From Cylindrospermum sp. NIES-4074 (GTDB taxonomy: Bacteria; Cyanobacteriota; Cyanobacteriia; Cyanobacteriales; Nostocaceae), in NCBI GenBank assembly GCA_003994795.1, contig AP018269.1, positions 2,545,346 through 2,609,345 on the forward strand: a DNA stretch of 64,000 bases, written 5' to 3'. The notes beneath the pieces were generated by a model. It saw only the letters and a program-made list of their open reading frames with translations. It did no database searches and had not been told where the DNA came from. The position numbers were made by a program, and so were the translations under genes. Position 1 is the stretch's first letter, and every line of letters begins with the position of its first letter. Shown here piece by piece: positions 1,735 to 64,000 of this stretch.

Positions 1735-1735
1735 A

Positions 1736-2978: not shown

Positions 2979-3012
2979 TATACATCTATCAGTTTTGTCG
3001 CTAGGATGAGAG

Positions 3013-3044: not shown

Positions 3045-3073
3045 AACTGGAGATTAGTCAAGAGGTATGAATC

Positions 3074-3652: not shown

Positions 3653-3707
3653 TGACTGAAAGACAAAAAACGATTAGGGACACAGCATAGCCGTATCCCT
3701 GCATATC

Positions 3708-4106: not shown

Positions 4107-4141
4107 AGTTGAGATATCCTTAGATTACAAAAATTACTCTT

Positions 4142-4163
4142 GCATTAGTCATTTGACTAATGC
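4142..4163 (-). terminator. Hairpin between htpX and the downstream gene
   Basis: GCATTAGTC-ATTT-GACTAATGC is a perfect 9-bp stem with a 4-base loop, 8 bases after the htpX stop. Reading on the minus strand it is followed by AAGAGTAATTTTT, a weak U-tract. It is a plausible attenuating terminator. Confidence 0.5.
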
Positions 4164-4170
4164 CCAATGA

Positions 4171-5456: not shown

Positions 5457-5852
5457 ATGCTGCAACAGACAGAAATTCGCCATGCGATCGCCATTAGTTT
5501 CGGTGCGATCGCCGGAGCGCTGAGTCGGTATTACCTAACACTGTGGTTTACCAACCGCTTTGGCATCAGTTTTCCTTATGGGACATTTTTCATTAACCTG
5601 AGCGGTTGTTTAGCTATGGGATTTTTCGCAACTTTGGCTGTAGACAAGGTGCAGCTTATTTCCCCAGAAGTGCGGTTGATGGTAGCTACAGGATTTTTAG
5701 GGGCATACACAACTTTTTCCACCTACGGTTTAGATAGTATTAACTTATTGCGTAGCACCAATTTATTAACTGCGACTGGTTACTGGGCGGGTAGTGCCAT
5801 CCTGGGAGTTATTGGTGTGCAGTTGGGTGTGATTCTCGCTAGATTTTTTTAA
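5457..5852 (+). CDS. crcB: Fluoride efflux transporter CrcB (Fluc)
   Basis: 131 residues with four hydrophobic segments, the standard size of a Fluc/CrcB subunit, which dimerises in the inner membrane and exports fluoride. Family motifs are clear: [15 protein letters not shown] (segment 1), [11 protein letters not shown] (segment 2, with the conserved Asn) and [16 protein letters not shown] (segment 3 break with the Phe/Ser/Thr pore residues). The last segment is [20 protein letters not shown]. Fluc proteins insert as dual-topology dimers, so one gene is enough. The start codon is poorly supported by a ribosome site. An alternative first Met is absent. Confidence 0.93.
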
Positions 5853-7277: not shown

Positions 7278-7884
7278 AAAAAGTTCGAGTGCATCATCAT
7301 CTCGTGGTTATTCTGATAGAAAAGTAGAAACAAGGGAGTTAAGGCAAATATTTTTAATTGTTTGTGAAGGTGCGAAAACCGAGCCAAATTATTTCAGAAA
7401 CTTTCGCGTTTCCACAACTGTTAAGGAAATTCAGGTTGAAGGAGTTGGATATAATCCAAGTAAGTTAGTGCAAGAAGCGAAAGAATTAAAAGCTCAAGGA
7501 GATTATGATCAGGTTTGGTGCGTATTTGATAGAGATGATTGGACGAAGCAAGATTTTAACAACGCTATTGCTAATGCTGAAAGAGAAGGTTTTAAAGTTG
7601 CTTATTCTAATGAAGCATTTGAATTATGGTATGTTTTACTTTTTGAATTTCTCAATACTGGACTTCCTCGCAAAGATTATATTGCTAAATTAGATAATTT
7701 GCTGAAAAAGAAATATAAGAAAAATAGTGATACAATTTATGAAGAGATAGAAAATCTACAACCTACTGCTATAAAACACGCTAAAAATCTTCTCAAGCAA
7801 TATAATCCTTGTAATCCAGAAAGTGATAATCCCTCAACAACAGTACATCTGTTAGTTGAGGCGTTAAATAAATTTATTCGATAA
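7270..7884 (+). CDS. RloB family protein (TOPRIM-like)
   Basis: 204 residues from the ATG at 7270, which overlaps the ATPase stop; a GTG three codons upstream (7261) is an alternative. RloB-like proteins were first noticed near restriction-modification loci. Motifs fitting a TOPRIM-like fold are LIVCEGAKTEPNYF (conserved Glu, about residue 30), WCVFDRDDW (the acidic DxD-type motif, about 83-90) and SNEAFELWYVLLF (about 114-126). The basic Ser-rich N-terminus may contact nucleic acid. With the upstream ATPase it forms an ATPase plus nuclease pair. I infer that it is the effector of a defence module; the chemistry is not proven by sequence alone. Confidence 0.85.
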   Translation: MPRKSSSASSSRGYSDRKVETRELRQIFLIVCEGAKTEPNYFRNFRVSTTVKEIQVEGVGYNPSKLVQEAKELKAQGDYDQVWCVFDRDDWTKQDFNNAIANAEREGFKVAYSNEAFELWYVLLFEFLNTGLPRKDYIAKLDNLLKKKYKKNSDTIYEEIENLQPTAIKHAKNLLKQYNPCNPESDNPSTTVHLLVEALNKFIR

Positions 7885-39922: not shown

Positions 39923-41299
39923 ATGAATTATGACTTAGCTGATGCTATTTCTATCGCCTCCGATGTTCTAACAGGCAAAGTTAGCGCTGTGGAAATCACT
40001 CAAGCTGCTTTAGCACGAATTGCGGTGCGGGATGGAGAACTTAACTGTTTTACCGCTATCACTGCGGATAAAGCTTTGGCTGATGCTGCACGCATTGATA
40101 GGGAAATTGCCCAAGGTAATTATCCCGGTGTTTTGGCTGGTGTGCCTTTTGCAGTGAAAAATCTGTTCGATATCGCTGGTTTAACAACTTTAGCAGGGGC
40201 GAAAATTAATGTTGAAAATCCCCCAGCTACTCAAGATGCAACCGCCGTTGCGAAGTTGAAACAAGCGGGTGCGGTGTTGGTTGGCGCTTTAAATATGGAT
40301 GAGTACGCTTATGGGTTTGTCACGGAAAATTCTCATTATGGCGCAACTCACAACCCCCACGATTTACTGCGGGTGGCTGGTGGTTCCTCTGGTGGTTCTG
40401 CGGCGGCGGTTGCTGCTGGGTTGGTACCCCTGACCTTGGGTTCTGATACTAATGGTTCTATTCGCGTTCCGGCGGCTTTGTGTGGCGTTTTTGGTTTTAA
40501 ACCAACCTATGGGCGTTTGTCTCGTGCTGGGGTAGCTTTATTTTCTAGCAGTTTTGACCATATCGGGCCTTTTGGGCGTTCGGTGCGGGATATTGCTACA
40601 GCTTTTGATGTGCTTCAAGGGGAAGATGCACGAGATCCGGTTTGTACAAAGCGTTCTCCTGTCAGCTGTGCAGTATCTATGCATGAAGATATTTCTGATA
40701 TTAAAATTGCGATCGCCAATGATTATTTCACTCAAGGCGCAACACCAGAAGCTTTAGCAGCAGTTCAACAGGTGGCTGAGGCTTTGGATGTGAATACTTA
40801 CGTAAATATACCAGAGGCTAACCGCGCCCGTGCTGCGGCGTTTGTGATTACAGCTAGCGAGGGAGCAAATCTGCATTTGCAGAAATTGCGATCGCGTCCT
40901 CAAGATTTTGACCATGCAACACGCGATCGCTTTCTCGCTGGGGCGTTAATCCCTAGCAGCTGGTACTTGCAAGCCCAGCGCTTTAGAACATGGTATCGCG
41001 ATCGCCTCCGAGAAGTCTTTCAAAATGTCGATATCATTCTCGCCCCCACCACACCAATTACAGCACCCTTAATTGGTCAACAAACCATGATTTTAGACAG
41101 TCAAGAAATACTCGTCCGTCCCCATTTGGGTTTGTTTACTCAACCATTATCTTTCATCGGTTTACCAGTTTTATCAGTCCCAATCAAGCGCCCAAATGCC
41201 TTACCTCTGGGTGTGCAATTAATAGCCGCACCCTACAATGAAGCCTTAATTTTACAGGTTGCAGCAGTCTTGGAGACAAAAGGTATAGTATCAGTTTAG
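39923..41299 (+). CDS. AtzE-type amidase
   Basis: 458-residue amidase-signature enzyme. The catalytic triad elements are AVKNLFDIAGLTTLAG (Lys), AGGSSGGSAAAVAAGLVPLT (cis-Ser) and GSDTNGSIRVPAALCG (nucleophile Ser). Later family blocks are FKPTYGRLSRAGV, FDHIGPFGRSVRDIA and LGVQLIAAPYNE. It resembles AtzE, the 1-carboxybiuret/biuret-type amide hydrolase, rather than GatA. The DUF4089 subunit two genes upstream supports this. A role in urea-derivative or cyanuric-acid-type nitrogen salvage is possible, but no atzF or cyanuric hydrolase is present in the window. Confidence 0.9.
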   Translation: MNYDLADAISIASDVLTGKVSAVEITQAALARIAVRDGELNCFTAITADKALADAARIDREIAQGNYPGVLAGVPFAVKNLFDIAGLTTLAGAKINVENPPATQDATAVAKLKQAGAVLVGALNMDEYAYGFVTENSHYGATHNPHDLLRVAGGSSGGSAAAVAAGLVPLTLGSDTNGSIRVPAALCGVFGFKPTYGRLSRAGVALFSSSFDHIGPFGRSVRDIATAFDVLQGEDARDPVCTKRSPVSCAVSMHEDISDIKIAIANDYFTQGATPEALAAVQQVAEALDVNTYVNIPEANRARAAAFVITASEGANLHLQKLRSRPQDFDHATRDRFLAGALIPSSWYLQAQRFRTWYRDRLREVFQNVDIILAPTTPITAPLIGQQTMILDSQEILVRPHLGLFTQPLSFIGLPVLSVPIKRPNALPLGVQLIAAPYNEALILQVAAVLETKGIVSV

Positions 41300-42090: not shown

Positions 42091-42981
42091 ATGGTTGAAA
42101 TTCCCATAATTGACTTATCTACCTTCACTAATGGTAACGCAACAACTCGCCAAACAGTAGTTAAACAAATATATCAGGCTTGCCATGAAATCGGCTTTAT
42201 GTACTTGCAAAATCCGGGAATATCTCCAGATTTAATTGACCAAATATTTATCCAAAGCAAATCTTTCTTCAATTTACCTTTAGAACTCAAACAACAGCAA
42301 GCCTGGAGTGATGAATACAGTAATACAGGTTACGTTGGTATGGAGAGAGAACGCCTTGACCCTAATAAACCAGGAGACTTAAAAGAAGCATTTAATATAG
42401 ATAAGGACAAATCAGCACAAAACCCTCATATTCTCGCCTTTTATGATGCTTGTACGGAATTAGCTAACACAGTTTTAGAAGGTCTTGCTTTAGCATTAGA
42501 ATTACCAGCAGATTTTTTCACTACCAGACACAATCAACAAAATCACACTTTGCGACTGCTGCACTATCCCCCGTTGCAGACATCACCCAAACCCGGACAG
42601 GTTCGTGCTGGTGAACATTCTGATTATGGCAGTATCACGTTACTCTTTCAAGATGAAATTGGCGGGTTAGAAGTGCAAACCGTAGAGGGAAAATGGATTG
42701 CAGCTGCGGCTATTCCTGGTACGGTAGTAGTTAATACTGGGGATTTAATGCAGCGCTGGACAAATCATGTGTTTTGCTCAACTAAACATCGGGTAATGCT
42801 TCCCAGTGATAGTAGAGTGAAACATTCCCGATATTCTGTGGCTTTTTTCTGTCATCCCAATGATGAGATAGAAATAGCTTGTCTAGAGAGTTGCCAAAAA
42901 GAGCGCATCCCTATTTATGCCCCTATCTTAGCGGGAGAATATCTGTTGAGCCGTTTACAAACAACATACTCAACCCCATAG
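42091..42981 (+). CDS. Isopenicillin N synthase-like Fe(II) dioxygenase
   Basis: 296 residues of the non-haem Fe(II)/2-oxoglutarate dioxygenase superfamily (IPNS-like). N-terminal DIOX_N part (IDLSTFTNGNATTRQTVVKQ), then the jelly-roll with iron ligands His and Asp in GEHSDYGSITLLFQDE, distal His in HVFCSTKHRVMLPSD, and the 2-oxoglutarate-binding Arg-x-Ser in RYSVAFF. Substrate unknown; bacterial relatives are often secondary-metabolism hydroxylases. It diverges from the GNAT gene by 46 bases and converges on the giant kinase. Confidence 0.93.
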   Translation: MVEIPIIDLSTFTNGNATTRQTVVKQIYQACHEIGFMYLQNPGISPDLIDQIFIQSKSFFNLPLELKQQQAWSDEYSNTGYVGMERERLDPNKPGDLKEAFNIDKDKSAQNPHILAFYDACTELANTVLEGLALALELPADFFTTRHNQQNHTLRLLHYPPLQTSPKPGQVRAGEHSDYGSITLLFQDEIGGLEVQTVEGKWIAAAAIPGTVVVNTGDLMQRWTNHVFCSTKHRVMLPSDSRVKHSRYSVAFFCHPNDEIEIACLESCQKERIPIYAPILAGEYLLSRLQTTYSTP

Positions 42982-43037: not shown

Positions 43038-46000
43038 CTACAAAGGAATCTGAATCACAAAATCTGCACCTTGACCTGGTGAAGAAATACACTGCAACAT
43101 ACCACCATGTTTCTCGGTCACAATTTGATAACTAATTGAGAGTCCTAATCCAGTTCCCTTACCTTCTGGTTTAGTGGTAAAGAAAGCATCAAAGAGTTTT
43201 TGTCGTGTTTCCTCCGACATCCCAGGCCCATTATCAGCAATGTGAATCATCAAGTGATTGTCCACAATTTCCGTGCGAATAGTAATCACATTGGGATTCT
43301 TCTCAATTTCAGCAAATGCCTTACCTTGATTAGATTCTTCCAACGCATCAATAGCATTTGCCAACAAATTCATAAATACCTGGTTCATTTGCCCAGGAAA
43401 GCAAGCTACAGGTGATAGCTTGCCATACTCTTTGATCACTTGAATGGCGGGACGAGTCGGGCTAGCTTTCAAGCGATGCTGTAGAATCATCAAGGTAGTT
43501 TCGATACCTTCATGAATATCTACAGCTTTTTTGTCTGCACTATCAGTACGTGAAAAGTTACGCAGAGACATCATAATGCCACGAATGCGATCGGTTCCCA
43601 GTTTCATGGAGGAAATCATCTTCGGTAGGTCTTGTAGCAAGAACTCCAGATCAATAGCCTCAATTTCATCAGCAATTTCTACCGGTGGGGAAGGTAAGTA
43701 CTTCTGGTACAGCTCAAGCAGATTAATCAGGTCTTCAACATACTGGTTAACGTGGGATAAATTGCCAGAAATGAAGCTGACGGGATTATTGACTTCATGG
43801 GCCACCCCAGCAACTAATTGTCCTAGAGAGGAGATTTTTTCAGTTTGCACTAATTGTGCTTGGGTCTGTTGGAGTTGTTGGAAAGATTGTTGTAACTGCT
43901 GGGATCTTTCTTGTTCTCGTGCATAGAGGCGGGCATTTTCGATCGCGATCGCCGCTTGGGAAGTCAGCAGCCTCAGAATTTCCAGACGATTGCTCGTAAA
44001 TGCCCCATTGGTCAGGTTATTTTCCAGGTAGAAAATACCTGTGAATTTACCCTGGTAGAAAATAGGAGCGCAGACAACAGATTTGGGCTGATGGTGTTTG
44101 ATGTATGGGTCTTCTCTAAAGAGAGCCTCAGAACTGGCATCACTTATTACCAAAGTTTGCTGAGTTCTAGCAACGTAATTAATCAGAGTTATGGGTATAT
44201 CGTCGCTTGTTTCTACTGGTGTTGATTGTAGAACAACAGAAGAAGCGTGCTGATCAGTGTGAATCACTTCGATGAACAGTTGTTTCTCTTTTTCTAGAAT
44301 CAGACAACCCTTTTGGGCCGCAGCATTTTCCAGGATGATAGCCAGCAGTTTACCCAGCAGTTTATCTAAAACAATTTCGCTGCTAATTGCCTGGGAAAGT
44401 TTCATCACTGTAGCCAAGTCCAGCATTTTAGTGCTGTTGGTTGCGCTTCCCGTGGCGGTAGTAGTTATACTTCTGGTAATTGTCTTACCCATATAAAATT
44501 CAGGCTCTATAACCTTTTCTCTGCGGATAATTAAATTAGGATGGCGTTCCTCTAAGTCTTGCACTTTAGCAAAGGCTCCCCAGCGAATGTAGCTATAATA
44601 AGCGTCGGTCATGTAAGTTTTAGCAATGTTTCCTTTGCCCAATTTCAGGTAGAACTCTGCTGCTAGTTCATTGGCCAAGGCAACTTCTTGGATGTAACCA
44701 TTTTCCGCTGCTCCTGAAATTGCGCGATCATAAAAATTCATCGCTTGCACATCCTGCCCCAACACTCTAGCTTTTTCTGCCTCCACTAGCTCATATTTAT
44801 GTTGGAAGTTACATGGAGCATGGTAAGCCCATTGTTTCATTTTCTTTTGATTCGCTGCTACTTGTTTGAGATATTTCTTTCGTTCAGAGTTTGAGGCGTT
44901 ATTAAACTGCGCTATAAGGGCTAAGGAATAGTAAAAATTACTGACAGAATAAAGTAAGAATCCCGGACTACTCTCCTGATATTTTTCTATTATGCGGGCG
45001 CTTTGAATGGCATTTTCGTAATTATGAAAGCAATAATTGAGAATAGTTTTGCAACAGTACACAGTACTTAACCAAGAATAATTATTGCCTAAAGAAACCA
45101 TCATATCTGCTTCATTAAATGCTACACCTGCTAAAGCGGATTTTGCTGATGAATTTCCCTGTAAATTTAAAACTTTTTGTCTGATTGCACTTATGGCTAA
45201 AGCCCCTGCTTCTAATTTTAAACTCCGCATTAACTCAACATACTTATCTAATTTTTGCTCTACTAACTCCAAATTTTCTCCACTGAAAAATAAATTGGCG
45301 CTTAAGTTCCAAACGTTAGCATTAGCAAATTGTATATCTCCAGTTTCTAGCCCACTGTACATTCCTTCTAATAGAGGTGCAATCGTGTCTTTGATAGGAT
45401 CTTTAAAGTGCCGAATTGTGGCGTTGAACATAAAATAAACTTTAGATTTGACTGAGCTAACATTCATCCTTTCTAGAACTGAAATTCCCAACAAACCAAA
45501 TCTATATCCTGCTTCTATATCACCAAATTTGTCACAAAGCATTGCACCATAAGCACTATAACCAAACGCGGCCGTGGCAGAGTTGCCATATTTAACAGAT
45601 AGCCTTACCATCGCCAACATAATTAGTGGAAAATGCAAAGAGCCTGCCTGAGAAGCAACAGGAGCGACAAGCATCAAGATTTGCATAGCTGCCAGTTTAT
45701 AGGGGTCAGTCATTCGTGGCCAAGCAGATAAATCTTCAATGCGTTTTCCCGCTAAGGTTAATTTTGTCTGTACCACAGTTGCTAAGACATCCAGCATAGT
45801 GGGTTTATTTGGCAGTTGCATTCCCAGTAATTTTAGAACTTGTACACCAATATCCAATGCTTCTGACACAAAATTTTGTCCCATATAAGACTGGATTTGA
45901 ATATCGTATACTCTCACCTTATGTAAAATATTATTAGCTTGTTGTAAAGTGAAATTTATTAGGTGATTAGATCTATCAAAATTGCCATTTAAATACTCCG

Positions 46001-48428
46001 CCTCTGCTATCTCTATATACAGATTTAGAGTTATCTCATAGTGACTCTGCCAACTATCTGCTGCTAACAGTCCCAAACCCACATTCAAATACCTGATAGC
46101 CGCTTCATAAGCATTGGATATCTTAGCTTTTTTGCCAGCAATGAGATTCAGTTTAGCTAGCTCATCTTTGTCAGCTTGTTTCACAAGCAGTTCCACACCA
46201 ATATTTAGCTGGTTAACAATATCTAAAATATTTTCTGCTAGTACTTCAGAAGGTGTTTGTTTTAGAAGTAGCTGACCTATTTTTAGGTGAGTTATCTTTT
46301 GCTGATCTCTAGGAATAAGTGAATAGGCAGCTTGCTGTACTCGGTCATGTAAAAACTTATAGCCCACTCGTTTAGTATCGAATGTAATATTAACCGCTTC
46401 TTCCTGATTAAAGACTAGAGGAATTCGGTAAGCCTCACTCAAAGGTAAAATTAACCCTGCTTGTAAGGCTGAATAAAGCTCATTAGCAGTAGTTGCCGAT
46501 GAATGTTCATTCACAACTGACAGCACATCTAGATTGAATCTATCCCCGATACAGGCTGCTAATTTTAAGATATTTTGAGTGGCTTCTGGTAACTTTTGAA
46601 TCCGACTAGCTACCAATTCCACTATACTCTTATCAGTTATGCCAATCGCTTGAATTTCCTCAATACTCCACTGCCATGAGGCAGTAATAAAGTCAAATAT
46701 TAGCAGGTTTTCTTGATGAAGTGCCTGAAGTAGTTGCGTCAAGAAAAATGGATTACCACCTGTTTTATTAAAGATTAATTCAGCTAGTCCATAGCTTTGT
46801 TCTGTGTTGTCGTGTAATGTTTCATTAAGTAACTGACTTACATTAGTTATTGTTAAGGGTTCCAAGACCATGTTATTTACAATGATGCCAGTCTTCTCAA
46901 TCTCTTCTATTGTCTGAATTAATATATGCCCACTAGAGACTTCATTATCTCTGTATGCACCAATTAATAGCAGATATTTACTATCAGAGTCAGTAATCAA
47001 CAGTTGCATTAACTTCAATGTGGCAGAGTCTGCCCATTGCAAGTCATCTAAAAAGATGACTAATGGATGCTCTTTTTGAGCAAAGACTCGCGTAAATTCA
47101 GAAAAAAGGCGATTGAAGCGGTTTTGGGATTCAATTGCGCCTATTTGTGGTATTTTTGGCTGAGTTCCTATGATTAATTCTACTTCGGGAATCACATCAA
47201 TAATGACTTGCCCATTTGACCCAACGGTGTTGAGTATTTTGCTTTTCCATATTTCAATTTGGGCTGTACTTTCAGTGAGTAACTGTTGCATCAAGGAGCT
47301 AAAAGCCTGAATCAGCGACACATAAGGAATATTCCGCTGGAATTGGTCAAATTTACCACTGATAAAGTAACCCTTAGCACGGGTGATAGGTTTATTAACT
47401 TCGTGGACTATCGATGATTTTCCAATTCCTGAATAACCAGAAACTAGCATTAGTTCAGTGCTTCCCTGGCTAACACGCTCAAAGGCTGACAAGAGTAAAT
47501 TAACCTGGTTTTCTCTGCCATAAAGCTTTTGAGGGATGAGCAATTGACTGAGAACATCTAAGCGTCCTGGTGTAAACTCAGTAATCTCACCTGTGGTTTT
47601 TAAATGGGTTTGACAGATTTCTAAGTCGGCTAATAATCCGGCTGCACTCTGATATCTATCTTCAGCATTTTTCGCCATCAGTTTTTTAACAATAGAGCAG
47701 ATAGCTGCTGGCACATCTGGCTTCAATTTCTCAATTGTGATAGGTTGTTTGGCAAGATGGTAGTGAACTAACTCTAGGGGGTCATTGCTTTGAAAAGGTA
47801 ATTGACCTGTTAACATTTCATAGAAGGTGACACCTAAAGAGTAAAAATCGCTCCGATAATCAACAGGTCGATTCATCCTCCCGGTTTGTTCGGGGGACAT
47901 GTAGGCTAGAGTGCCTTCCAGTTGATTTGGGTTAACGAGTTGTGGTGTTTCTTTATAAAGGCGTGTAGAAATGCTGAAGTCGGTCAGCTTCACCTCTCCT
48001 GAAAGCGGGTTGATGATGATGTTGGCAGGCTTAATGTCTTTGTGAATAATACGATTATTATGTAGTGACACCAAAGCTTGCGCTAGTTGCATGGCAATAC
48101 TTAAAAATGTAGCTATCTCCAATTTCTGAGCAAAGAGCAATTCCTTGAGGGAATGTCCACCGAAGTCTTCACATACCAGCGCCAAACGATTTTGATGGGT
48201 TTCAAGTCTCAATACTTTGACTATGCCCTGTATATCAAGACTTTCCGTCATTTTATATTCGTGCTTGAGACGGGCAATATCTTCGAGGGTAGGATAGTCT
48301 GCTTTGAGGACTTTGAGGATGACGGGTTGAGCTTCAGGTTGCGCTGTGCCCCGATAGACAATAGTGTTAATGCCCTCGTGGATGATTTCGGTCAGGTCAT
48401 AACCGGGAATTATAGAGGATGCGAGCAT
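43038..48428 (-). CDS. Giant Ser/Thr kinase-ATPase-GAF-histidine kinase
   Basis: 1796 residues, a trifunctional signalling protein typical of filamentous cyanobacteria. In order: eukaryotic-like kinase domain (about 8-270), with [15 protein letters not shown] catalytic loop (HKD instead of HRD) and LTDFSIS instead of DFG, so its kinase activity may be weak. An AAA ATPase of the signal-transduction class follows (Walker [10 protein letters not shown] near 332). Then a long helical TPR-like region, a GAF domain (about 1345-1490), a coiled coil ([20 protein letters not shown]) and a histidine kinase. The kinase has the H-box [14 protein letters not shown] (about 1541), [20 protein letters not shown] and [11 protein letters not shown]. 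It lacks membrane segments. A paralogue lies at 60229-64000. No cognate response regulator is adjacent. Confidence 0.95.
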
Positions 48429-48700
48429 TGCGAAATCTTACCAGGATATAAAGTGTACTACATCTAGAGTTCCCGCTTCTGCACTTTTTCAAACAACTAA
48501 AGTTCATTATTTCAACAACGCACTTGGGATCTCTTTGTAGATCCTTATCCAGACAGCGCTATCTTCCAGTAGTAGCCTCATGCATCTAAGGCAAATGCGT
48601 AAGCTACATATGCATCAATAAATCTTTTTGTCAAGACAATTTTAGATACTCTTTCACTGCACATAGTAGGCTTTTTGGTCTTGGTCTACTGATATTTAAA

Positions 48701-49783
48701 TTAGCTTAAGTGTTGATTGATATGTTTACTCAGATGTATCATGGCATTTGAGGTAAGAGCAGTAATGTAGTTTAATGTTTCTAAATGATAGCCGCCACTG
48801 CCTTTTTCTCTGATATGATTTTCAGCAATATAAGCTTCGTCTACAACTTTTATATGTGGCTTACGAAATTTAATTAATATATGAAATAGTTTCATCAAGG
48901 CATTAGCTCCGTCCAGAATAGTATTATTAGCTGCTGGAGCGGTTTTTAATTCTCTGCAAACTTTAGTTAGCAGAGAAGGCTGGGCTTCAAATTCTGTATA
49001 GAGTTTACGGAATTTAGGAAGGCAATATGGTAGCAATGCTTGCCTAAATTCCAAATATGGTTCTTCCATACACTCTGCACTCCAGAGCAGATGGTCGAAA
49101 ATAAAAAGGGGCATTTCTACGGCTCCTGGTCCAAGAAACTCCTTACCTTGCACAATAATCGGATCAAAATAAGCGCGTAATTCTTCTGCGAATATTTTGC
49201 GTGACACTTTTTTGATGGCATAAACAATTGCTTCTACCATTCCAGTCAAGTTTTCCTCACACTGTCTGCATTGTAAGACAAATTCAGGAGTATCTATAGG
49301 AATTGTATGTAAACTACTCAAATCATAAATTGCACATTCTAACCTGGGTATGGCTATTTTTCCGCTTTCAATTAACCGAGTTTCATCTATATAAGCAGTA
49401 TGTCTCCGTCCCCTTTCTCCTTGAGGATTCCAAAGGCAGTAATGCATCAGGGTGTCTCTAGGTACCATATCTGTCATTTTTCCAAGATTGACGAAAACAG
49501 GCTCCAATGAAGGAACTGCCTCAACGGGTTCAATACCATGTTTTTTGAGAGAACCTGCGAATATACCAATATCTCTGACAACTGCTAGTGCTTGGTGAAA
49601 TGTATAATGCTTTATCTGTTCTAGTTCAGGCATTAGGATTTTGATAGTACAAATAATACTGTTAGTATCCCTTGAAGCATTCATTTCGGGCAGTTTCTTC
49701 AAAACACAATCTGCCTCTAAAGGATCTAGTGTACTAATGTATATATCGTCTTCAGTATTTCTTTGGGAAGGATGGTAAGTCAT
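48701..49783 (-). CDS. PrnB-like haem enzyme (DUF1864 family)
   Basis: 360 residues, matching the 361-residue PrnB (monodechloroaminopyrrolnitrin synthase), which rearranges 7-chlorotryptophan in pyrrolnitrin synthesis and belongs to the indoleamine dioxygenase superfamily. Resemblance to PrnB as I remember it is seen throughout: VRDIGIFAGSLKKHGIEPVE, AVPSLEPVFVNLGK, LMHYCLWNP, FLGPGAVEMPLFIFDHLLW, FRKPHIKVVDEAYI and GSGGY. The His of KPHIK (residue 310) aligns with the remembered axial haem ligand His313 of PrnB. No signal peptide. It lies 3' of a flavoprotein gene on the same strand. Substrate here is unknown; no tryptophan halogenase is near. Confidence in family is high, in reaction low. 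Confidence 0.85.
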   Translation of the reverse strand: MTYHPSQRNTEDDIYISTLDPLEADCVLKKLPEMNASRDTNSIICTIKILMPELEQIKHYTFHQALAVVRDIGIFAGSLKKHGIEPVEAVPSLEPVFVNLGKMTDMVPRDTLMHYCLWNPQGERGRRHTAYIDETRLIESGKIAIPRLECAIYDLSSLHTIPIDTPEFVLQCRQCEENLTGMVEAIVYAIKKVSRKIFAEELRAYFDPIIVQGKEFLGPGAVEMPLFIFDHLLWSAECMEEPYLEFRQALLPYCLPKFRKLYTEFEAQPSLLTKVCRELKTAPAANNTILDGANALMKLFHILIKFRKPHIKVVDEAYIAENHIREKGSGGYHLETLNYITALTSNAMIHLSKHINQHLS

Positions 49784-49950
49784 CAGAATTGTTGAATATT
49801 AAACACTAAAATTTAGCATAATATCTTTTAACATTCAACAATTTTGAGAACACGATGAGCCAGATATATCGTCTGAATAGTTGTCTAATTGAGAGCTTTT
49901 AGCAATATGCTATTCAGAACAATTTAGTTCAATTTTTCAGCAGTGTTAAT

Positions 49951-50057
49951 TATATAGGAATCCGACCAGAGTTTTCAAAGCATACTCAGACTAAAAGCCT
50001 AAGGTAGTCGGGCTTTTATCTAAAAAACTTTTCAGTAATCAAACCGAATTCCTATAT
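49951..50057. mobile_element. Short terminal-inverted-repeat element (MITE-like)
   Basis: ATATAGGAATCCG at the left end is mirrored by CGAATTCCTATAT at the right end, giving imperfect 13-14 base terminal repeats around about 80 bases. The inner hairpin TAAAAGCC ... GGGCTTTTA (49992-50018) is included. TATAGGAATTCGG-type ends recur in Nostoc-type genomes in my memory. It separates the flavoprotein gene from the PrnB-like gene. Confidence 0.6.
49992..50018 (-). terminator. Hairpin between flavoprotein and PrnB-like genes
   Basis: TAAAAGCC-(10 bases)-GGGCTTTTA with flanking A/T runs. On the minus strand it would terminate or attenuate the flavoprotein transcript before the PrnB-like gene; it is part of the terminal-inverted-repeat element. 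Confidence 0.5.
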
Positions 50058-50060
50058 GAA

Positions 50061-51947
50061 TTAACTTTTAGTTGTACTAGATAAAGCTAAAGTCTGCAAA
50101 TCTGTCAATGTTAAGACTTCCTTCTTACTGGAAAAGGACATACCTTTTTTTGCCTGAAGAGATGTAGCTAACACTTTTTCCTGAGAAGATGGGGTCAACG
50201 CTTCTAACTGTAACTTGAAAAATGCCAACAACGGTTGGATATGCACATCTTCTTTCCATTCACTGGCAATGTCCTCAATAACGTGATGTTCAGCAACCAA
50301 CTTACCTTTACGAAAACCCCGAATTATTGGATGAATAAAAGTACTATCTGATGCTTTGTGGATATCATCTTTGTGTACACGCTCTATCGCAAAAGGATCA
50401 GGATTTGAATTAGATGCATCTGTCCCAAACTCTAGAGTAACTGTGTAATATAGGTTGTGTTTACCTAAATCGCTTTCATGCACATAGTCAATAGGGAGGT
50501 CTTGATAGTATTGAGCAAATCTATCTTCACTAGAAACTATAATTAAGTCGCAGAGAAAGCCTGTCTGCTGCCATAATCCTGAACTACGATTCACTCGTTT
50601 GATAATTGTATCCACAAAGTTTTGGGGAGTAAGAGTGAGTGCATGATTTGGTAATTCTTGATCATGATACTTTTTCTCTAGAATATTGTGTAACGCTTTG
50701 ATATTGTAACGGAATCCATGAATAAATCCAGATTGCTTTTTCTTGTAATCTCGCATATGCATCAATGTGCCTACAAAATACAAGTCTTTGATATTAGTTG
50801 ATTCCCATTCGCTTGTCTGTGCTGGGAAGCGGTCATCAATGGCTAGTGAGGGTTGGCAATTTTCATCAAAAATAGAAGCATTAAATTGCCAGCCAGTACA
50901 CACGATCACGCGGTCATAAACTAAAGTTTCTTTTTCCTGATGGGCATGTGTGTAGCTGAAAGATACTAGATATTTATTATTTTCGCGTCTAATACTATCG
51001 ATTCTTGCATCGATAATCACATTCTGTGATTTCAGCTGATAGGTATCCAAAATATTATTATTGACTGCTCTTAAATTACCTACATATTTAGTTTTCCATG
51101 CCATTGAAATAGGACGCGGGCTAGCTAAATGAATAGATGCCGTTGTATCAACTAGTGCATCAGCGGTTTCAAAAGCAGAATTACCTTTACCAATGATTAA
51201 GACATTTTGATTGACAAAATCATCAGGATCTACAGATACTTCCGTGTATTTTTCGGCTAATTCAATGCCTGGTATAGATGGAATGTAGAGTTTGGTAAAA
51301 CCAGTAGCAATGATGAGACGCTGAGAGTAATAAATATTTCCCTCACTATCCATTACTTGGAATTTCCCATCCTTAGATATTTTTACAACCTTAGTGTTGT
51401 ACTTAACCTTAAGATTGAAATGTTGAGTAAAATCATGAAGATATTGCACTAAGTCATCAGCACTGGGAAAATAGCGTTTACTGTAATTTTTAAACAGCAT
51501 TTCTTCGCTATCGCTTAATAATGAATTCCAGTCCCATCTTAAGTTAACCTCTGGGTCGTTATACCCTGTATATACCTTGTTAATGGAAATCAGCTTACGG
51601 TGTCGGGGAAACTCTTTAAAGAATGTTCCTGGAGCATTTCCGGCTTCTAAAATTAGGTAACTATGATTTGATTTTTCTAAAAAATAGCCAAGTTGTACTC
51701 CAGCAGGGCCAGCACCTATAATCAAGTAGTCTAATTCTTTAGGGTTATTCATTAGTTCCTGTGGTAGCTCAAAGTTCCACTCATCTGAACAGCTCATTGC
51801 TGAAGAAGTGAAGGCTAAAAGATTAAAGTAGACTGCCCAGGCTAGTCTGTATTTTAGTTCTATATCTTTATCTTGTAGAAAATGGAAAAAAGTTAACAGA
51901 CCAAATTCTAGGTTTTTTTGTTTAACCAATGCTAGAACTTCTTTCAT
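50061..51947 (-). CDS. FOXRED2-like flavin monooxygenase with HO-like N-terminal stub
   Basis: 628 residues from the ATG at 51947, chosen because AAGGTG lies upstream and because the N-terminus MKEVLALVKQKNLEF matches that of the protein at 59418. An earlier in-frame ATG at 52004 adds 19 residues. Residues about 1-60 resemble the first helices of the haem-oxygenase-fold protein at 59418. The rest is a FOXRED2/FMO-type flavoprotein: FAD site LIIGAGPAGVQLGYFLEKS, PRHRKLISINKVYTGYNDPE, LRWDWNSLLSD, NADPH site VLIIGKGNSAFETADALV and VIVCTGWQFNASIF. Soluble, no signal. Just upstream of the PrnB-like gene. I infer N- or C-hydroxylation of an amino-acid-derived substrate. Confidence 0.87.
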   Translation of the reverse strand: MKEVLALVKQKNLEFGLLTFFHFLQDKDIELKYRLAWAVYFNLLAFTSSAMSCSDEWNFELPQELMNNPKELDYLIIGAGPAGVQLGYFLEKSNHSYLILEAGNAPGTFFKEFPRHRKLISINKVYTGYNDPEVNLRWDWNSLLSDSEEMLFKNYSKRYFPSADDLVQYLHDFTQHFNLKVKYNTKVVKISKDGKFQVMDSEGNIYYSQRLIIATGFTKLYIPSIPGIELAEKYTEVSVDPDDFVNQNVLIIGKGNSAFETADALVDTTASIHLASPRPISMAWKTKYVGNLRAVNNNILDTYQLKSQNVIIDARIDSIRRENNKYLVSFSYTHAHQEKETLVYDRVIVCTGWQFNASIFDENCQPSLAIDDRFPAQTSEWESTNIKDLYFVGTLMHMRDYKKKQSGFIHGFRYNIKALHNILEKKYHDQELPNHALTLTPQNFVDTIIKRVNRSSGLWQQTGFLCDLIIVSSEDRFAQYYQDLPIDYVHESDLGKHNLYYTVTLEFGTDASNSNPDPFAIERVHKDDIHKASDSTFIHPIIRGFRKGKLVAEHHVIEDIASEWKEDVHIQPLLAFFKLQLEALTPSSQEKVLATSLQAKKGMSFSSKKEVLTLTDLQTLALSSTTKS

Positions 51948-52994
51948 GAGTAGGGACACCTTAATTTTACAAAGATTGCTGAGGTTTTCAGCGGTAAACA
52001 GCAAATATCTAAACCACCGACAGGAAACCCTTTCAAATGGCGTTTGTAGAAGAATGCACGTTCATTCTGATATGAAACTGTTTATGACAATGCTCAAGTG
52101 TGGCCTAAGAAGCCACCATCTATAAAATATGATGATAGCATTTAGGCTCACAAGCTCTTGAATAAAATCTTCTCAGTATATACTTAGAAAGTCAAGAGGC
52201 TATGGCAAGAATTTTCCGAGTTTATACTCAATGCCCAAGAAGGCTCAGGAAAATTGCTACTTATTTGCTCTTGACTTAAATGCTACAACAATGAGCTTAA
52301 GCAAATTTAGAAGTTGGCAGGGGTGAATGAATATATTTTCCTGCTAGCTCTAAGCTGTACTTTTTTTAGTCATTGCTGCGGCATCTACCAAGTAGGCTGG
52401 GTAACAATAAACAATAGTTTATATTGATATCTCGCTCATCGCAATTGCTCAAAGCCTTATCTAGAGCTTCTTTATCATCTCTTTAATGAATGGCTGCATA
52501 AGGACTGTCAACGACTTCTTAAGTTTATATTTTTCGGAAATATCTTTGCTCTTCATATTTCAAGGCTGTCATTTAAAATTTATAAAATCCATGAACTGAT
52601 ATGAAGATTTCTTCAAGACAATCGAATTTTACACGGTAGTGGTTTTACTGGGTTCTATCTTTTCTGGGTGAAAATTGCACTACCCAATGTCCTCAAGCTC
52701 CTCCTTGATTAATCTCCAACTCTCACAACCTTTGTGCTGCGGTCATTCCATACTAAAGCTAAAATTGCTTCTAAGCGGTTGGGAATCAGGTTTTGCACAC
52801 TATCCACCCTTTGTATAGTCAAAGTCGTGAAGTGGTGCTGAGGATGGAAGACAGTACAAGGGGTGGCGATGTATAATAACAGCCTTCGCTGTAACTATGT
52901 AACTATATTTTATTTAGGGCTAGAATAGTCGAGCCTTTGAGAATTTTCAACCATCAAGCAGCCCATTGCCCCCGCAAACAGATAAGATTTACAT
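51948..52994. other. 1-kb intergenic region before argS
   Basis: No start-bearing gene is recognised in these 1047 bases, which must contain the divergent promoters of the flavoprotein gene (minus) and argS (plus). On the minus strand, about 52710-52890 an open frame without an obvious start reads PQHHFTTLTIQRVDSVQNLI, then PNRLEAILALVWNDRSTKVV and a stop. It may be a gene remnant. Otherwise the DNA is AT-rich and featureless. Confidence 0.4.
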
Positions 52995-54752
52995 ATGAAC
53001 GCTACACAAGAACAACTAAAAGTTAAGTTAGAACAGGCTCTGGTGGCTGCTTTTGGCGCTGAGTACGCTGGAGTTGATCCGGTTTTGGTTCCTGCTAGCA
53101 ATCCTAAATTTGGTGATTATCAAGCGAATGTAGCTTTATCCCTGAGTAAAAAGTTAGGAAAGCAGCCAAGGGCGATCGCATCTGCCATAGTAGAGAAGTT
53201 GGATGTATCGGACATTTGCGAACCGCCAGAGATAGCTGGGCCTGGTTTTATCAATCTCAAACTGCAAACAGCATACCTGGAAGCACAATTAAACCTGATT
53301 CAAGCAGATCCCCGGTTAGGAGTCCCCACAGCAAAAACCCCACAGCGGGAAATTGTGGATTTTTCTAGTCCGAATATTGCCAAAGAAATGCACGTCGGAC
53401 ATTTGCGGTCTACTATTATTGGAGATGCGATCGCTCGCATTCTTGAATGGAAAGGACATGATGTGTTGCGGTTAAACCATGTTGGCGATTGGGGAACGCA
53501 ATTTGGAATGCTCATCACCTACCTGCGAGAAGTTTACCCAGAAGCCCTAACCACCGCCAACGCCTTAGATATTGGGGATTTAGTCAGTTTTTACCGCCAA
53601 GCCAAACTACGGTTTGATACAGATGAAACTTTCCAAGAGACAGCAAGGCAAGAAGTTGTCAGATTACAAGCAGGTGCAGAAGATACACTCCATGCTTGGA
53701 AACTGCTGTGCGAACAGTCGCGGCGTGAGTTTCAGGTAATTTACGATTTGTTGGATGTTCAAGTAACTGAACGGGGCGAATCTTTTTATAACTCCTTGCT
53801 ACCAGGAATTGTCGCAGATTTAGAAAAAACTGGTTTATTGGTAGAAAATCAAGGGGCGAAATGTGTTTTCTTGGATGGGTTTACTAACAGAGAAGGTGAA
53901 CCTCTGCCTTTAATTGTGCAAAAATCCGATGGTGGGTATAATTACGCAACTACTGATTTAGCATCCCTGCGCTACCGGATTCAGCAAGATCAAGCAAAGC
54001 GGATAATTTATGTCACCGATGTTGGACAAGCAAACCACTTTGCCCAATTTTTCCAGGTAGCACGCAAAGCCGGATGGATTCCTGATGATGTGGAACTAGT
54101 TCATGTTCCTTTTGGTTTGGTGCTGGGGGAAGATGGTAAAAAGTTCAAAACCCGCTCTGGGGATACTGTGCGGCTGCGGGATTTGCTGGATGAGGCGATC
54201 GCACGTTTTCGTGTGCTTTTGGAAGCTAGATTAAAAGATGAAGGACGAGAAGAAACTGAAGAGTTCATATCTCATGTTTCTACTGTAGTTGGTATTAGTG
54301 CTGTCAAGTATGCAGACCTCAGTCAAAATCGCACCAGCAACTACATCTTCAGCTATGACAAAATGATAGCGCCTTTAGGTAATACGGCACCATACTTACT
54401 CTATGTTTACGCTCGGATTCAAAGTATTGGTCGTGAAGGTAATATTAATTTTGAACAGTTAAGAATTAATGGCAAAATCACCTTAGCTGAGGAAACAGAA
54501 TTAACTTTGGCAAAGCATATCTTACAACTCGACAAAATTATTAGTGATGTTGAGCAAGATTTGCTCCCAAATCGTTTGTGCGAGTATTTATATCAGTTGA
54601 GCGATAAGTTTAACAAGTTCTATGAGAATTGTCATGTTCTCAAATCTGAGGAACCTATACGTACATCTCGATTGGTGTTGTGCGATTTAACGGCTAGAAC
54701 GCTGAAATTGGGTCTATCTTTACTGGGGATTCAGGTAGTAAATAGGATGTAG
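52995..54752 (+). CDS. argS: Arginine--tRNA ligase
   Basis: 585 residues, normal for class I ArgRS, which charges tRNA(Arg) and needs the tRNA for activation. The N-terminal additional domain is [20 protein letters not shown] with [10 protein letters not shown]. The HIGH signature appears as [16 protein letters not shown] (about 133-148). Further marks are [35 protein letters not shown] and the KMSKS-equivalent [19 protein letters not shown]. The C-terminal anticodon-binding helices ([12 protein letters not shown] ... [20 protein letters not shown]) are complete. It is cytoplasmic, essential and transcribed alone. Confidence 0.97.
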
Positions 54753-55144
54753 AAGGAATTTTCTTTGGTTCTTCGGTACTTTTTATGGAGAACCCAGTTC
54801 AGAATCATTGAAAGCCTTATTGTGTCGGCTTTTCATTGAAAATATTGGGCATAATAGTTTATAAGCCTTGCCCCATAAGGGTTTTGTGGTAATCAATCAT
54901 CAATTACCATAAAATCTCCGAAAGAACCTTTTCTTTTAACGCAGAGGAACACGGAGGGAACGCAGAGGTACGCAGAGAGTTTAATTGAGGTTTTTTTCTT
55001 TGCGTCCTTATTCCTGCTACGAATTTATCAGTAGGGGAAATTTGACGATTAAACTTAAAATAATACTGCCACTCATCAGGCACTTAGGCAAGCTTTGATC
55101 CGTCACAACTAACCATCAACTATTAAAATCTGGAGAAAGAGAAA
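54753..55144. other. Intergenic region with short dispersed repeats
   Basis: These 392 bases carry a hairpin TGGTAAT ... ATTACCA (about 54894-54911) and the repeat block AACGCAGAGGAACACGGAGG followed by AACGCAGAGGTACGCAGAG (54939-54980), a well-known intergenic repeat type of Nostoc relatives. No gene is seen. Confidence 0.5.
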
Positions 55145-59417: not shown

Positions 59418-60134
59418 ATGAAAGAAGTCCTGGATTTGATTCAAAAGAAGAAGCTAGAATTTGCTCAAGCACCATTATTTAAATATATGCAAGACAAAAG
59501 CATACATCCAAAGCAAAGATTAAGTTTTGCACCCTGTATAGTTCCTTTAGCTATGGAGTTTGGGGAGCAATGCAAATATGTCTTTACAGAAGATGTAACA
59601 ACTAATGAACTCCAAAAAATAATTAATCAACATGCTCGTGAAGAGCACCATCACTGGCAGTGGCTTCTAGAAGACCTGGAAAAATTGGGTTTTAACGATC
59701 TTCAAAGTTACAGTAAATCGATAAAATTTCTTTGGGGAGAAGAAACTAAAAAAACAAGGGATGTATGTAGGCTAACTGATCTATATACCTTCCAAGCCGA
59801 CCCCATCTACAAGCTGGTAGCAATTCAGGTAGCAGAAGTAACAGCAAATATATTTTTCACTGTAGCAGAAACAGTAGCTGAGGAATTGCAAGAAATTACC
59901 CAAAAATATTATACATATTTTGGGGGATGTCATTTAGATAAAGAAAACAGCCATCAAATAAATCAACCTGAAAAATGGCAAATCATAACCCAGATACAAC
60001 TTTCACAAGAAGCTCGTCAAAAAGCTTTTGAGATAGTTGAGACACTGTTTCAAGCCTATTTAGATGTAATGAATGAGTGGTTGGAATTTGCCAAAAAGCA
60101 AGATTTACAAGCATTACAATTACAAATTGTCTAA
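59418..60134 (+). CDS. Haem-oxygenase-fold protein, putative diiron oxygenase
   Basis: 238 residues, all-helical, of the haem-oxygenase-like (TenA/PqqC/HDO) superfamily. Candidate metal ligands sit where diiron members have them: Glu in LAMEFGEQCKYVF (about 48-60), His cluster REEHHHWQWLLEDLEKLGF (about 75-93), Glu in VAEVTANIFFTVAET, and a late His/Asp/His set in GGCHLDKENSHQ (about 173-184). Such enzymes do N-oxygenation or C-C cleavage of amino acids (SznF, UndA, BelK types). The first 39 residues match the N-terminus of the flavoprotein at 50061-51947 at about 19 positions. GAGGAATC precedes the ATG. Function is inferred only. Confidence 0.78.
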   Translation: MKEVLDLIQKKKLEFAQAPLFKYMQDKSIHPKQRLSFAPCIVPLAMEFGEQCKYVFTEDVTTNELQKIINQHAREEHHHWQWLLEDLEKLGFNDLQSYSKSIKFLWGEETKKTRDVCRLTDLYTFQADPIYKLVAIQVAEVTANIFFTVAETVAEELQEITQKYYTYFGGCHLDKENSHQINQPEKWQIITQIQLSQEARQKAFEIVETLFQAYLDVMNEWLEFAKKQDLQALQLQIV

Positions 60135-60228: not shown

Positions 60229-63200
60229 TTATTGGCTGCATCTTATCTTTCTAGATACAACATTCGGTATCCCAATCATAAACTCACTTCCCTTTCCTGG
60301 GATGGAATCACAAACTAACTGACCTTTGTGTTTTTCCACTACAACCTGATAGCTAATCGATAAACCTAACCCTGTACCACTTCCTACCGGCTTAGTGGTA
60401 AAAAATGGGTCGAAGATTTTCTGCTGCACCGCTTCTGTCATCCCAGAACCGTTATCAGCAATCCAAATTTTTGCTATATGGTTGTCTACGAATTCAGTAC
60501 GAATACGAATTGTAGGTTTGTTCATTATCAGTTGTCCATTATCTCTAATGTTGCCCTTAGCCAATGATTCCTCCAAAGCATCAATGGCATTACTCAGAAT
60601 ATTCATAAACACCTGATTGAGTTGACCAGCATAACAAGCAATCTTTGGTAGATTTCCATACTCTTTGATAACTTCAATCGCTGGACGATCCCTGGTTTTC
60701 TTAAGTCTATGCTGCAAAATCATCAAAGAGTTATCTATTCCCTCATGAATATCTACTGGTTTCATCTCAGCTTCATCCAACCGTGAGAAATTGCGTAACC
60801 CTAAAACAATACTCCGGATGCGTGAGCTTCCTACGTTCATTGAATCCAGAATCTTTAGTAAGTCTTCCGCTAGAAAATCCATCTCAATTTCCTGAGTTTT
60901 ATCCTGAACTATAGGAGACGGATCGGGATATTCCTGTTGATAAATAGCAATCAAATCAAGCAAATCTTGGACATACTTATGAGCATAGGTTATGTTACCA
61001 TGAATAAAGTTGATTGGATTATTAATTTCATGAGCAATTCCCGCCACCATTTGTCCTAGAGAAGACATTTTTTCGCTTTGAATTAATTGGGTTTGGGTAC
61101 GTTGCAATTCCTTTAATGTCTGTTGCAAATTTTGATTTTTTTCATTTAGCTCTGCCGTTCTCTTAGCTACTTTTTCCTCTAGCGTATGGCTATATTGCTC
61201 TAAACTTTCTTTAGCCCGTGCTAAATTATTGTAAAGCATGGCATTTTGTAGAGATATTGCTACTTGGATGGTCAGGAGTTTGAGCACTTCTACACGCTCG
61301 CTTGTAAATGCTCCGGTAGTAAGATTATTTTCTAGGTAAAGAATGCCAAGCAATTTGCCTTGATTACTAATTGGGATACACAAGAGGCTTTTAGGTTGCT
61401 GACGAATAATGTATTGCTCCGTTATTAAGGGCGTCACAACTGTTGCATCATCAATAACCAAGATTTCCCCGGTGCGTTTAACATAGTTAATCAAAGTAAT
61501 CGGAACCTCTTTACTTGACTCTAGGCAAAGTGATGGAAATTCTGTGCAAGTTGACGCAAAAGTTGAGTTTGTACTGAGTGCGGTGACAGTTAAATTCGAT
61601 GTTTCATCTTCACTCAAAATCAGAGCACATTTAGAGGCTCCTGCATTCTCCATGACAACTTCCATTAACGTTGAAAGCAATCGCTCAAGTTCAATTTCCC
61701 CAGACAGTGCTTGAGATGCTTTGATGACAGATGCCAAATCTAATGAATCAGAAATGCTTGTCTTCGAGCCAAGGACAGTTTTTTGATGACTTACACTAGA
61801 TAAGGATAGGGATGCGCTGATGACAGAGGTGGTTGTCTCGTCACGATGAGAGATAAGTTGTTCTTGCTGAAGAATGGGAACCAGTAATTGGGGATAACGT
61901 TTTTGCAAATCGTTAACTTTGGCTAGTGCTCCCCAACGGGCATAGCCATAGTAGGCTTCAGTGAGATAGGCTTGAGCAATCTTATGCTTGTTCCATTCTA
62001 AATAGAATTTAGCAGCAAGTTCGTTAGCAAGAGATTCGTCATTAATGTACTCGTGTTCTTGTGCAAGAGCAATGGCCTGATCATAATCATTCATTGCTTC
62101 AAGATGTTGACGGAGTACCCGATGTTGCTCTGCTTCAACCAAATAAATTAGATGTAAATAATTCATTGGGGCATGATTCGCCCATTTACTCATCTTTTGC
62201 TGATTAGCTAGCACCTTATTCAATATTTGTTCTTGTTTTGATGATTCGGCTTCAGGATATAGTGCAAGCCACGTTAGAGAATCGTATAAATAGAATTTAG
62301 TAATTACTACTTGCCCAATACCGCCAAGTAAATACTGCTCTGCCTTACTAGCATTTTCCGCAGCTTCATTATATTGGCCAAAGTGATAACATAGAGTAAG
62401 CTTGCATAAATAAAAATATAAAAGAGCAACTCCATCATTTGCTTCTAGATGAACCGTAAGATTTTTTTCTTCGTTATAAGCTTCACCTAGTAAACGACAT
62501 GAATTGACCGCAGTACCCATAAAATTTAATACTGTCTGCCGATAAATCTCAACCCAGTAAAAAACTCGTTCTTGCTTGAGTTGACTAATGGCATGACTAT
62601 AGGTTGCCATCTCTCGTTCGAGTCCTGTCAGTTCCTTGCCGCTAAAATACGACATATAGCAGTAAGCCTTGAGAGAATATGCAGCAAATTCTAAATCTCC
62701 CGTTTCCAAACCAGCAGAGTAAGCTTCCAAAAGAGGCTTGATAACTTCTTTAATGGGTTCCTTCCAAGGTCTGACGTGAGTATTAAATGTTTGGATAATT
62801 TTAGCTTTAATTTCTTTTATACTAAAGCGTGACAATAGATTGGCAGCTAATTTGCCAAACTGATAACCAACTTCAATATCTTCCAAAGAACCACATAGCA
62901 TTAACCCATAAGTAACATAGGCAAAGGCGGATAGCGGAGCATTACCATACTTGATTGAGAGATTTATCTGTTTTAATACAATCAATGGGAATAATTCGGG
63001 AACAGCTTGATAGGCAGTAGCTGTTATACTTGCTAGGATTTGTATAGATGCCAGTTTCTCAGTATCAGTCATCACTGGGAGATGAATTAAATCTTCAATC
63101 TGTCTACCAGTCAAACTTGAAGCTGTTTCCTCTAGTGCTGATTTAAAATCTAACTGGCTTGGCTGTTGGACAAACTCTACCCCTAACTGCTCAAGAACAA

Positions 63201-64000
63201 TTCGTGCAATCTTGACGGCTTCAACCCCTTTACTCTGCGCCCCATAAGCCTGAATTTTGACTTCATAAACTTTGACTTTATCTAATAGTGTTCTAGCTCG
63301 TGTTAAAACTACTTTCACTAATTGCTCAGTTTGCTCAAAGTCACCAGCTAAGTAGGCCGCCTCTGCTGCATTCTCATACAAAGCTAGGGTTAGTTCATAT
63401 TTCCTTTGCCAACTATCACTTGAGAGGAGTTCAATTCCAGTAGTTAAATACTTAATAGCAGATTGATGAGCTGTTGATGCCAAAGCTTTACGTCCAGCAA
63501 TCAAATTCATCGCTGCCAGTTCATCGCGCTTAGTTTGATGAGTGACGAATTCTATGGCTACATTGAACTGATTAACAAGCTCAAAAATCTTTTCCTCTCG
63601 TTCTGCAATTGGGGTATTGGTCAACAATAATAGTCCAATTTTTAAATGAATTGATTTTTTCTGGTCTTCTGGAATCAGAGAATAAGCGGCTTGCTGTACC
63701 CGGTCATGTACAAACTTATATCGGGGAAATTGAAAATTGCTAATTGCTAATCCTGTATCTTCCCGCTCATCAATAGTTGCCCCATCACCTTCTGAAAATA
63801 ACTTACAAGTATCTACTTGAGGTAGAATTAGTCCTTCATGTAATGCTACCCATAAGTCTGAAGCTATATCTACCGCAGATTTTTCTTGTACTATAGCGAG
63901 AGTTTTTAAGTCAAATTCGTTACCAATACAGGCTGCTAATTTTAATACATTTTGACTGATTTTTGGCAACTTTTCTATTTGCAGTGCCATAAACTCTACT
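60229..64000 (-). CDS. Giant Ser/Thr kinase-ATPase-GAF-histidine kinase, N-terminus cut
   Basis: The frame is open to the window edge ([20 protein letters not shown] precedes the first in-window ATG at 63990), so the N-terminal kinase and most of the ATPase domain lie beyond. Present in order: end of the ATPase/helical TPR-like region, a GAF domain with [12 protein letters not shown] and [20 protein letters not shown], coiled coil, then the histidine kinase ([49 protein letters not shown]). It is a close paralogue of the protein at 43038-48428, with the same domain order. It converges on the haem-oxygenase-fold gene, 94 bases between stops. Confidence 0.93.

Follow-up and report, generated by a model that had tools for sequence, protein, structure and literature searches.

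Why does a cyanobacterium encode, directly behind a flavoprotein gene, a relative of PrnB, the haem enzyme of pyrrolnitrin synthesis? We addressed this question in a 64,000-nucleotide stretch of Cylindrospermum sp. NIES-4074 (assembly GCA_003994795.1, contig AP018269.1, positions 2,545,346 to 2,609,345; hereafter the window, in whose coordinates all its features are given). Both genes lie on its minus strand, prnB at 48701..49783 and the gene for the FAD/NADPH flavoprotein most likely at 50061..51752. Comparison with related loci points to a remodelled gene block, in which prnB now stands beside a flavoprotein whose usual neighbour is a diiron oxidase of the AetD/SktA family.

The 360-residue product of 48701..49783 is a true, full-length member of the PrnB family of His-ligated haem enzymes. 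It matches the PF08933 profile with 171.1 bits (cut-off 27, E 4e-50), and phmmer searches of the PDB recover PrnB of P. fluorescens (PfPrnB; 2v7i, E 2.7e-78) and that of a Flavobacteriales bacterium (FbPrnB; 9dfg, E 2.9e-55). An AlphaFold model built from an input of 18 sequences has a mean predicted local distance difference test (pLDDT) score of 86.6, and its top 12 structural matches in the PDB are all PrnB chains (template modelling (TM) score 0.87–0.93, root-mean-square deviation 1.7–2.5 Å). The next matches, a putative dioxygenase of Shewanella and human IDO, share only 12–17% identity with the protein; membership in the IDO/TDO family was rejected on account of this identity and of all 12 PrnB chains ranking ahead. 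Thus, the original prediction, made from the DNA letters alone, was right that the product resembles PrnB along almost its whole length.

The active site is equally PrnB-like. His310, which that prediction had named as the presumed haem ligand, aligns with His313 of PfPrnB and is invariant both among 6 and among 18 aligned sequences. Ser329, in a loop, corresponds to Ser332 of PfPrnB and Ser319 of FbPrnB, the latter of which binds the substrate carboxylate (PMC11791213). In the pocket, Tyr115 aligns with Tyr104 of FbPrnB, a residue said to narrow the pocket of that enzyme (PMC11791213), and PfPrnB has Val117 at this position. A check on the model that the prediction had proposed thus came out in its favour, with both the ligand histidine and the substrate-pocket residues of PrnB type. 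Since FbPrnB binds tryptophan and 7-chlorotryptophan almost alike, both with the amine coordinated to the haem iron (PMC11791213), and the window protein shares its tyrosine, unhalogenated tryptophan would fit as the substrate, and a halogenated one is still compatible. L-tryptophan is accepted by PrnB according to that study (PMC11791213), and a 2024 paper states that aminophenylpyrrole can be made by PrnB directly from tryptophan (PMC11434214).

The flavoprotein, labelled FOXRED2-type in the original prediction, lies upstream of prnB on the same strand, as had been predicted, and contains two Rossmann motifs and a Pyr_redox_3 domain (E 3.1e-52, 178 bits). The start at 51947 that had been assigned to it did not hold up: positions 50061-51947 of the minus strand form one open reading frame (ORF) of 628 codons, and homology to other flavoproteins begins at Met66 (51752). 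Searches at E <= 1e-60 recovered the flavoprotein in 28 of 208 genomes of the family, in 31 places. Leaving aside the window itself, 30 places remain; 29 of them could be compared over wide neighbourhoods, and the thirtieth (G531) in a locus of 4 kb only. These comparisons showed an association: 27 of the 29 neighbourhoods have an AetD/SktA-family ORF beside the flavoprotein, 25 upstream on the same strand and 2 downstream, and G531 too has the partner gene upstream. The two without it are L111 and L112, and none of the 29 has PrnB. The flavoprotein of L112 (5994-7610, G539), which lacks an AetD-family partner, is a more distant homologue (~45% identity), and the genes around it resemble, by eye, another biosynthetic cluster.

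Against the PDB, the profile of the partner family (17 rows, the window's relic described below included) recovers the AetD crystal structures at E 7.5e-78 and, apart from these, a single chance match (E 0.41). AetD is the diiron nitrile synthase of aetokthonotoxin synthesis, which converts 5,7-dibromotryptophan into an indole nitrile in a reaction independent of halogenation (PMC10654658). According to a review, SktA converts 5-bromotryptophan into 5-bromoskatole and differs from AetD at positions 142 (Thr for Ala) and 214 (Phe for Ser) (PMC13108848). All 15 aligned intact members outside the window have T142 and F214, and position 139 is mostly Ile (Thr in SktA). Elsewhere, the slot after the diiron-flavoprotein pair is taken by a flavin-containing monooxygenase (FMO; 8 loci), an O-methyltransferase, a P450, a hydrolase or a short-chain dehydrogenase/reductase; prnB occupies this slot in the window. 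The neighbouring FMO was considered as a counterpart of AetF and rejected, AetF not being among the 60 PDB matches listed of 67.

How the window came to differ is apparent from the two nearest relatives of its flavoprotein, L088 and L089 (genomes G538 and G541, of one other genus; 71–73% identity), in both of which the diiron oxidase gene, the flavoprotein gene and a giant kinase gene run in one direction. The window's kinase, the third gene of this collinear block (43038..48428, minus strand; Ser/Thr kinase, AAA, GAF and histidine-kinase ATPase domains), is 67.5–67.9% identical to the kinases of L088 and L089, and the next four of the six best matches listed reach 45–48%. At the DNA level, window segments 43041-48502, 50205-51738 and 51836-51947 align, in this order, with 240-5776, 6050-7583 and 8347-8458 of L089; at the same threshold L088 aligns over the kinase and flavoprotein stretches only, so that the 112-bp match to the 5' end of the diiron oxidase gene comes from L089. 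Between the aligned kinase and flavoprotein segments there are ~270 bp in L089 vs ~1.7 kb in the window, where they hold prnB. In the window, 666 bp are missing between the start of the diiron oxidase gene and the flavoprotein, a loss that leaves about 38 codons of the oxidase gene in frame ahead of the flavoprotein. This relic (51753..51947, minus strand; the homology covers roughly its first 38 codons and, in the DNA, 51836-51947) accounts for the extended ORF: judged by homology, the flavoprotein proper does not begin at the ATG at 51947, and the ~38 residues at the front represent the start of the deleted AetD-family gene. The alignments thus indicate that the diiron oxidase gene was lost from the window's block and that prnB was acquired between the genes for flavoprotein and kinase. 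No direct repeats bordering the insert were found in 48300-50400. The two genomes of the same genus have no flavoprotein match and differ from the window upstream of argS in the stretch compared, which for the G030 contig is only 1.4 kb.

Ten copies of the giant kinase family in this genome match over >1500 residues, two of them at the window; the second (60229..64000, minus strand) is cut by the window end. A broader giant-kinase cluster, obtained by single-linkage clustering and including shorter histidine kinases, is represented in 24 of 30 neighbourhoods, that of the window included.

The genome also retains three intact AetD-family genes. One lies in the window, 7.5 kb from the relic locus, and codes for a predicted diiron oxidase of 238 residues (59418..60134, plus strand; phmmer E 4e-43 and 32% identity to AetD). 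The iron ligands H79, E140, H172, E176 and H179 are identical, D76 is conservatively replaced by E76, as in L101 and L108, and positions 142 and 214 read T142 and Y214. The second belongs to a complete pair elsewhere (L085, 6530-10479), in which the AetD-family gene, a flavoprotein gene (product ~60% identical to the window's) and a P450 gene run in one direction. The third (L120, 7301-8047), without a flavoprotein, adjoins hemC- and glgA-like genes, and the same hemC-glgA pair adjoins the whole diiron-flavoprotein-kinase block in L088 and L089.

PrnB is rare in the cyanobacteria sampled. Three overlapping samples, which comprised 386 genomes from across the phylum, 217 from the family and 388 from the order, each gave a PF08933 match in a single genome, always that of Cylindrospermum sp. 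NIES-4074. As PrnB was found in only this sampled genome, its adjacency to the flavoprotein is not conserved. Hence, the search for conserved synteny proposed with the original prediction spoke against a fixed pair, the flavoprotein of the 28 family genomes being accompanied by PrnB in none of the 29 other neighbourhoods. What survives of the proposed unexplored oxidative pathway is an oxidative tryptophan locus, not a conserved PrnB-flavoprotein unit. PF08933 also occurs in six plasmid records, and genome contigs scanned with an alignment yielded 25 loci, none of which had a flavoprotein match at E 1e-5; a scan of genome contigs with the single sequence, and a search of viral contigs, gave no confirmed match.

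Among these loci, the closest is that of the myxobacterial Citreicoccus (L013), where, by eye, PrnC-like and PrnD-like ORFs come after prnB and a PrnA-like ORF lies on the opposite strand. In all three proteobacterial loci considered (L006 and L007 by annotation, L021 by ORFs), halogenase and Rieske genes adjoin prnB. In the PrnB tree, the window protein joins the proteobacterial and myxobacterial clade from outside, with support of 97/90, on a long branch, and its identity to the relatives in the tree does not exceed 42%. This tree has 32 rows, among which PfPrnB is not included; L037, a 24% match, was removed beforehand, and the tree program warns of long branches. The codon usage of prnB resembles that of neighbouring genes, and its GC content of 37.6% vs 35–47% in eight other window genes gives no evident sign of foreign composition. 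This codon usage, together with the outside position on a long branch, does not indicate a recent import of a pyrrolnitrin gene.

Two further contexts of the family deserve mention. A ketosynthase-like gene lies near the actinobacterial PF08933 genes of Streptomyces, Lentzea and Nocardia (L008, L035 and L036), by annotation in L008 and as read by eye in L035 and L036; L008 and L035 also have a flavin-dependent oxidoreductase there. This is a context without pyrrolnitrin genes. In Trinickia dabaoshanensis (L021), a distant AetD-family ORF (2677-3381; 26% identity to the window's 59418-60134 product, E 8e-23) lies upstream of a prnABCD-like cluster, with a flavin halogenase-like ORF and two ORFs of Rieske type following, by eye. 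Here genes of the AetD family and PrnB have come together a second time, independently of the window.

The window prnB, in turn, is flanked by the flavoprotein and the giant kinase; prnA, prnC and prnD were not found beside it, in agreement with the predicted lack of PrnA- and PrnD-type neighbours, and the gene arrangement of a pyrrolnitrin cluster was not encountered. In the readable part of the genome, PF04820 matched one ORF only (378 residues, 51 bits, cut-off 21), in a search that also matches in 5 of 14 control genomes, and a Burkholderia PrnD query gave only partial Rieske matches at 23–38% identity. A pyrrolnitrin pathway at this locus is unsupported by such weak or partial PrnA- and PrnD-type matches.

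We lean somewhat towards the explanation that the locus is a rebuilt tryptophan-dismantling one, in which the diiron oxidase was lost and PrnB gained, tryptophan would be turned into a phenylpyrrole, and the flavoprotein would serve PrnB. In this view, unhalogenated L-tryptophan would sit in PrnB with its amino group bound to the haem, and its rearrangement would release CO2 and yield 3-(2-aminophenyl)pyrrole or a closely similar compound. More tentatively, the NADPH flavoprotein, which may once have served the diiron enzyme, might now serve PrnB at a step common to both. As diiron and haem tryptophan oxygenases act on one substrate and both require O2 and electrons, the simplest such role would be the supply of electrons for O2 activation; otherwise, the flavoprotein could oxidise tryptophan or the product. 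Such a partner is of interest in that purified PrnB showed no activity with any redox system tried (ascorbate/methylene blue, xanthine oxidase, ferredoxin, putidaredoxin, cytochrome b5 and P450 reductase), and the authors of that work suspect a missing cellular component behind the inactivity in vitro (PMC11791213).

Several observations weigh against this explanation. The combination of PrnB and flavoprotein is seen in a single genome, and the three intact AetD-family genes could be what the flavoprotein serves. The low identity to any tree relative and the long branch outside the clade imply that the substrate or product of the window PrnB may differ from those of its relatives. A promoter-like site 5' of prnB (49949..49978, minus strand; 11 of 12 consensus bases, where 15 such sites in the region compare with 15.4 expected by chance) and a terminator-like hairpin between flavoprotein and prnB (49985..50003, minus strand; a consensus match only, with 5 found vs 2.6 expected) suggest that prnB may not be co-transcribed with the flavoprotein. 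The flavoprotein model, built without an alignment, reached a pLDDT of 30 and was not used. Finally, prnA-D suffice for pyrrolnitrin production in E. coli, and the authors on this ground consider an exclusive redox pair unlikely (PMC11791213).

The separate promoter- and terminator-like sites, the three intact AetD-family genes (one in a complete pair) and the adjacency in one genome only are also what favours chance neighbours, with prnB arriving by horizontal transfer in a spot freed by decay of the diiron-oxidase locus, PrnB acting alone, and the flavoprotein being a remnant or serving the intact AetD-family enzymes elsewhere. We hold this account possible but doubtful: both genes are open with their conserved motifs intact, prnB sits in the very slot where tailoring genes stand in other loci, and the characterised members of the lost and the gained family both have tryptophans as substrates, which would not be expected from chance. 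A broader version of a functional link, namely an exchangeable cyanobacterial tryptophan-breaking cassette, in which one NADPH flavoprotein is the redox partner of unrelated O2-using enzymes of AetD/SktA or PrnB type, seems rather unlikely; if true, the flavoprotein would be the natural activator of a PrnB, a kind of component absent from the in vitro trials (PMC11791213).

Two other functions for the flavoprotein were weighed. That it is a single-component, AetF-like tryptophan halogenase replacing PrnA, its product then being rearranged by PrnB, is very improbable. AetD and SktA do use bromotryptophans, AetF is an FMO-type flavoprotein of the AetD pathway, and a lysine, a candidate counterpart of AetF Lys258, follows the NADP motif in 21 of 23 aligned flavoproteins. 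However, this lysine is replaced by Glu in L088, which with L089 is nearest to the window's flavoprotein, and by Asn in L113; the 60 PDB matches listed, of 225 for the flavoprotein profile, do not include AetF; and Tyr115 of PrnB suits a pocket that holds tryptophan well. The scheme of the original prediction, in which the flavoprotein N-hydroxylates an amino acid before ring chemistry by PrnB, fares worst, and we judge it most unlikely. Its mainstay would be PF13434, the profile of lysine/ornithine N-hydroxylases, which scores above its cut-off (30.9 vs 21.3 bits), but on residues 175-290 only and far below Pyr_redox_3; judged from sequence, this match reflects the shared Rossmann region and gives no specific support for N-hydroxylation. 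Moreover, it is the free amine of the substrate that coordinates the PrnB haem, and prior N-hydroxylation would alter this.

A few other elements complete the picture of the window. An inverted repeat with 21-nt arms (49783..49847), located by a repeat search, ends at the prnB start codon; the RNA fold of a 261-nt stretch holding it has a z of -2.6, and it could serve in translation control or regulator binding. Rfam gave no match at gathering score in 47000-54000. Downstream of argS there is a ~165-bp repeat (54764-54938) with at least 5 more copies in the genome (78–93% identity) and several in both same-genus genomes. On the far side of the kinase lie genes for an AtzE-type amidase (39923-41299; TIGR02715, 742 bits) and, nearby, a 2OG-Fe(II) oxygenase (42091-42981).

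The broader import of the locus is that a single flavoprotein has had two unrelated families of tryptophan-rearranging oxygenases as neighbours, a diiron one that was lost and a haem one that was gained. This suggests that an exchange of such tryptophan enzymes around one flavoprotein partner is possible. The locus also brings out a link between AetD/SktA-family oxidases and a single flavoprotein family, seen in 27 of the neighbourhoods sampled from this one cyanobacterial family, and offers a natural candidate partner for probing the inactivity of purified PrnB, which has been described as an open problem (PMC11791213). No description of a cyanobacterial PrnB or of the diiron-flavoprotein pair was found in the literature searched, mainly titles and abstracts, with few subscription papers covered.

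Compared with known systems, the window protein shares with PrnB of pyrrolnitrin synthesis (2v7i, 9dfg) homology over nearly the whole length, the fold, the axial histidine and the serine loop, and with FbPrnB in particular the pocket tyrosine. It differs in its divergence from all tree rows, in the lack of adjacent prnA, prnC and prnD, and in being the sole match in the cyanobacterial samples. From the IDO/TDO haem dioxygenases, with which it shares the overall fold (TM about 0.55–0.71), it is set apart by the low identity noted above. A PrnB homologue is reportedly, in work of 2019, the maker of 3-(2'-aminophenyl)-pyrrole in Rapidithrix. This compound is a natural product of Rapidithrix thailandica (PMC2630848), an aminophenylpyrrole and marinoquinoline producer, and it is the product that would be expected of PrnB acting on unhalogenated tryptophan. 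AetD and SktA, in turn, represent the family of the flavoprotein's usual neighbour: the window's 59418-60134 product keeps the ligand positions and, like SktA, T142, but differs in the replacement of ligand Asp76 by Glu and in Tyr214 (Ser in AetD, Phe in SktA), whereas the copy that once stood beside the window's flavoprotein survives only as the relic.

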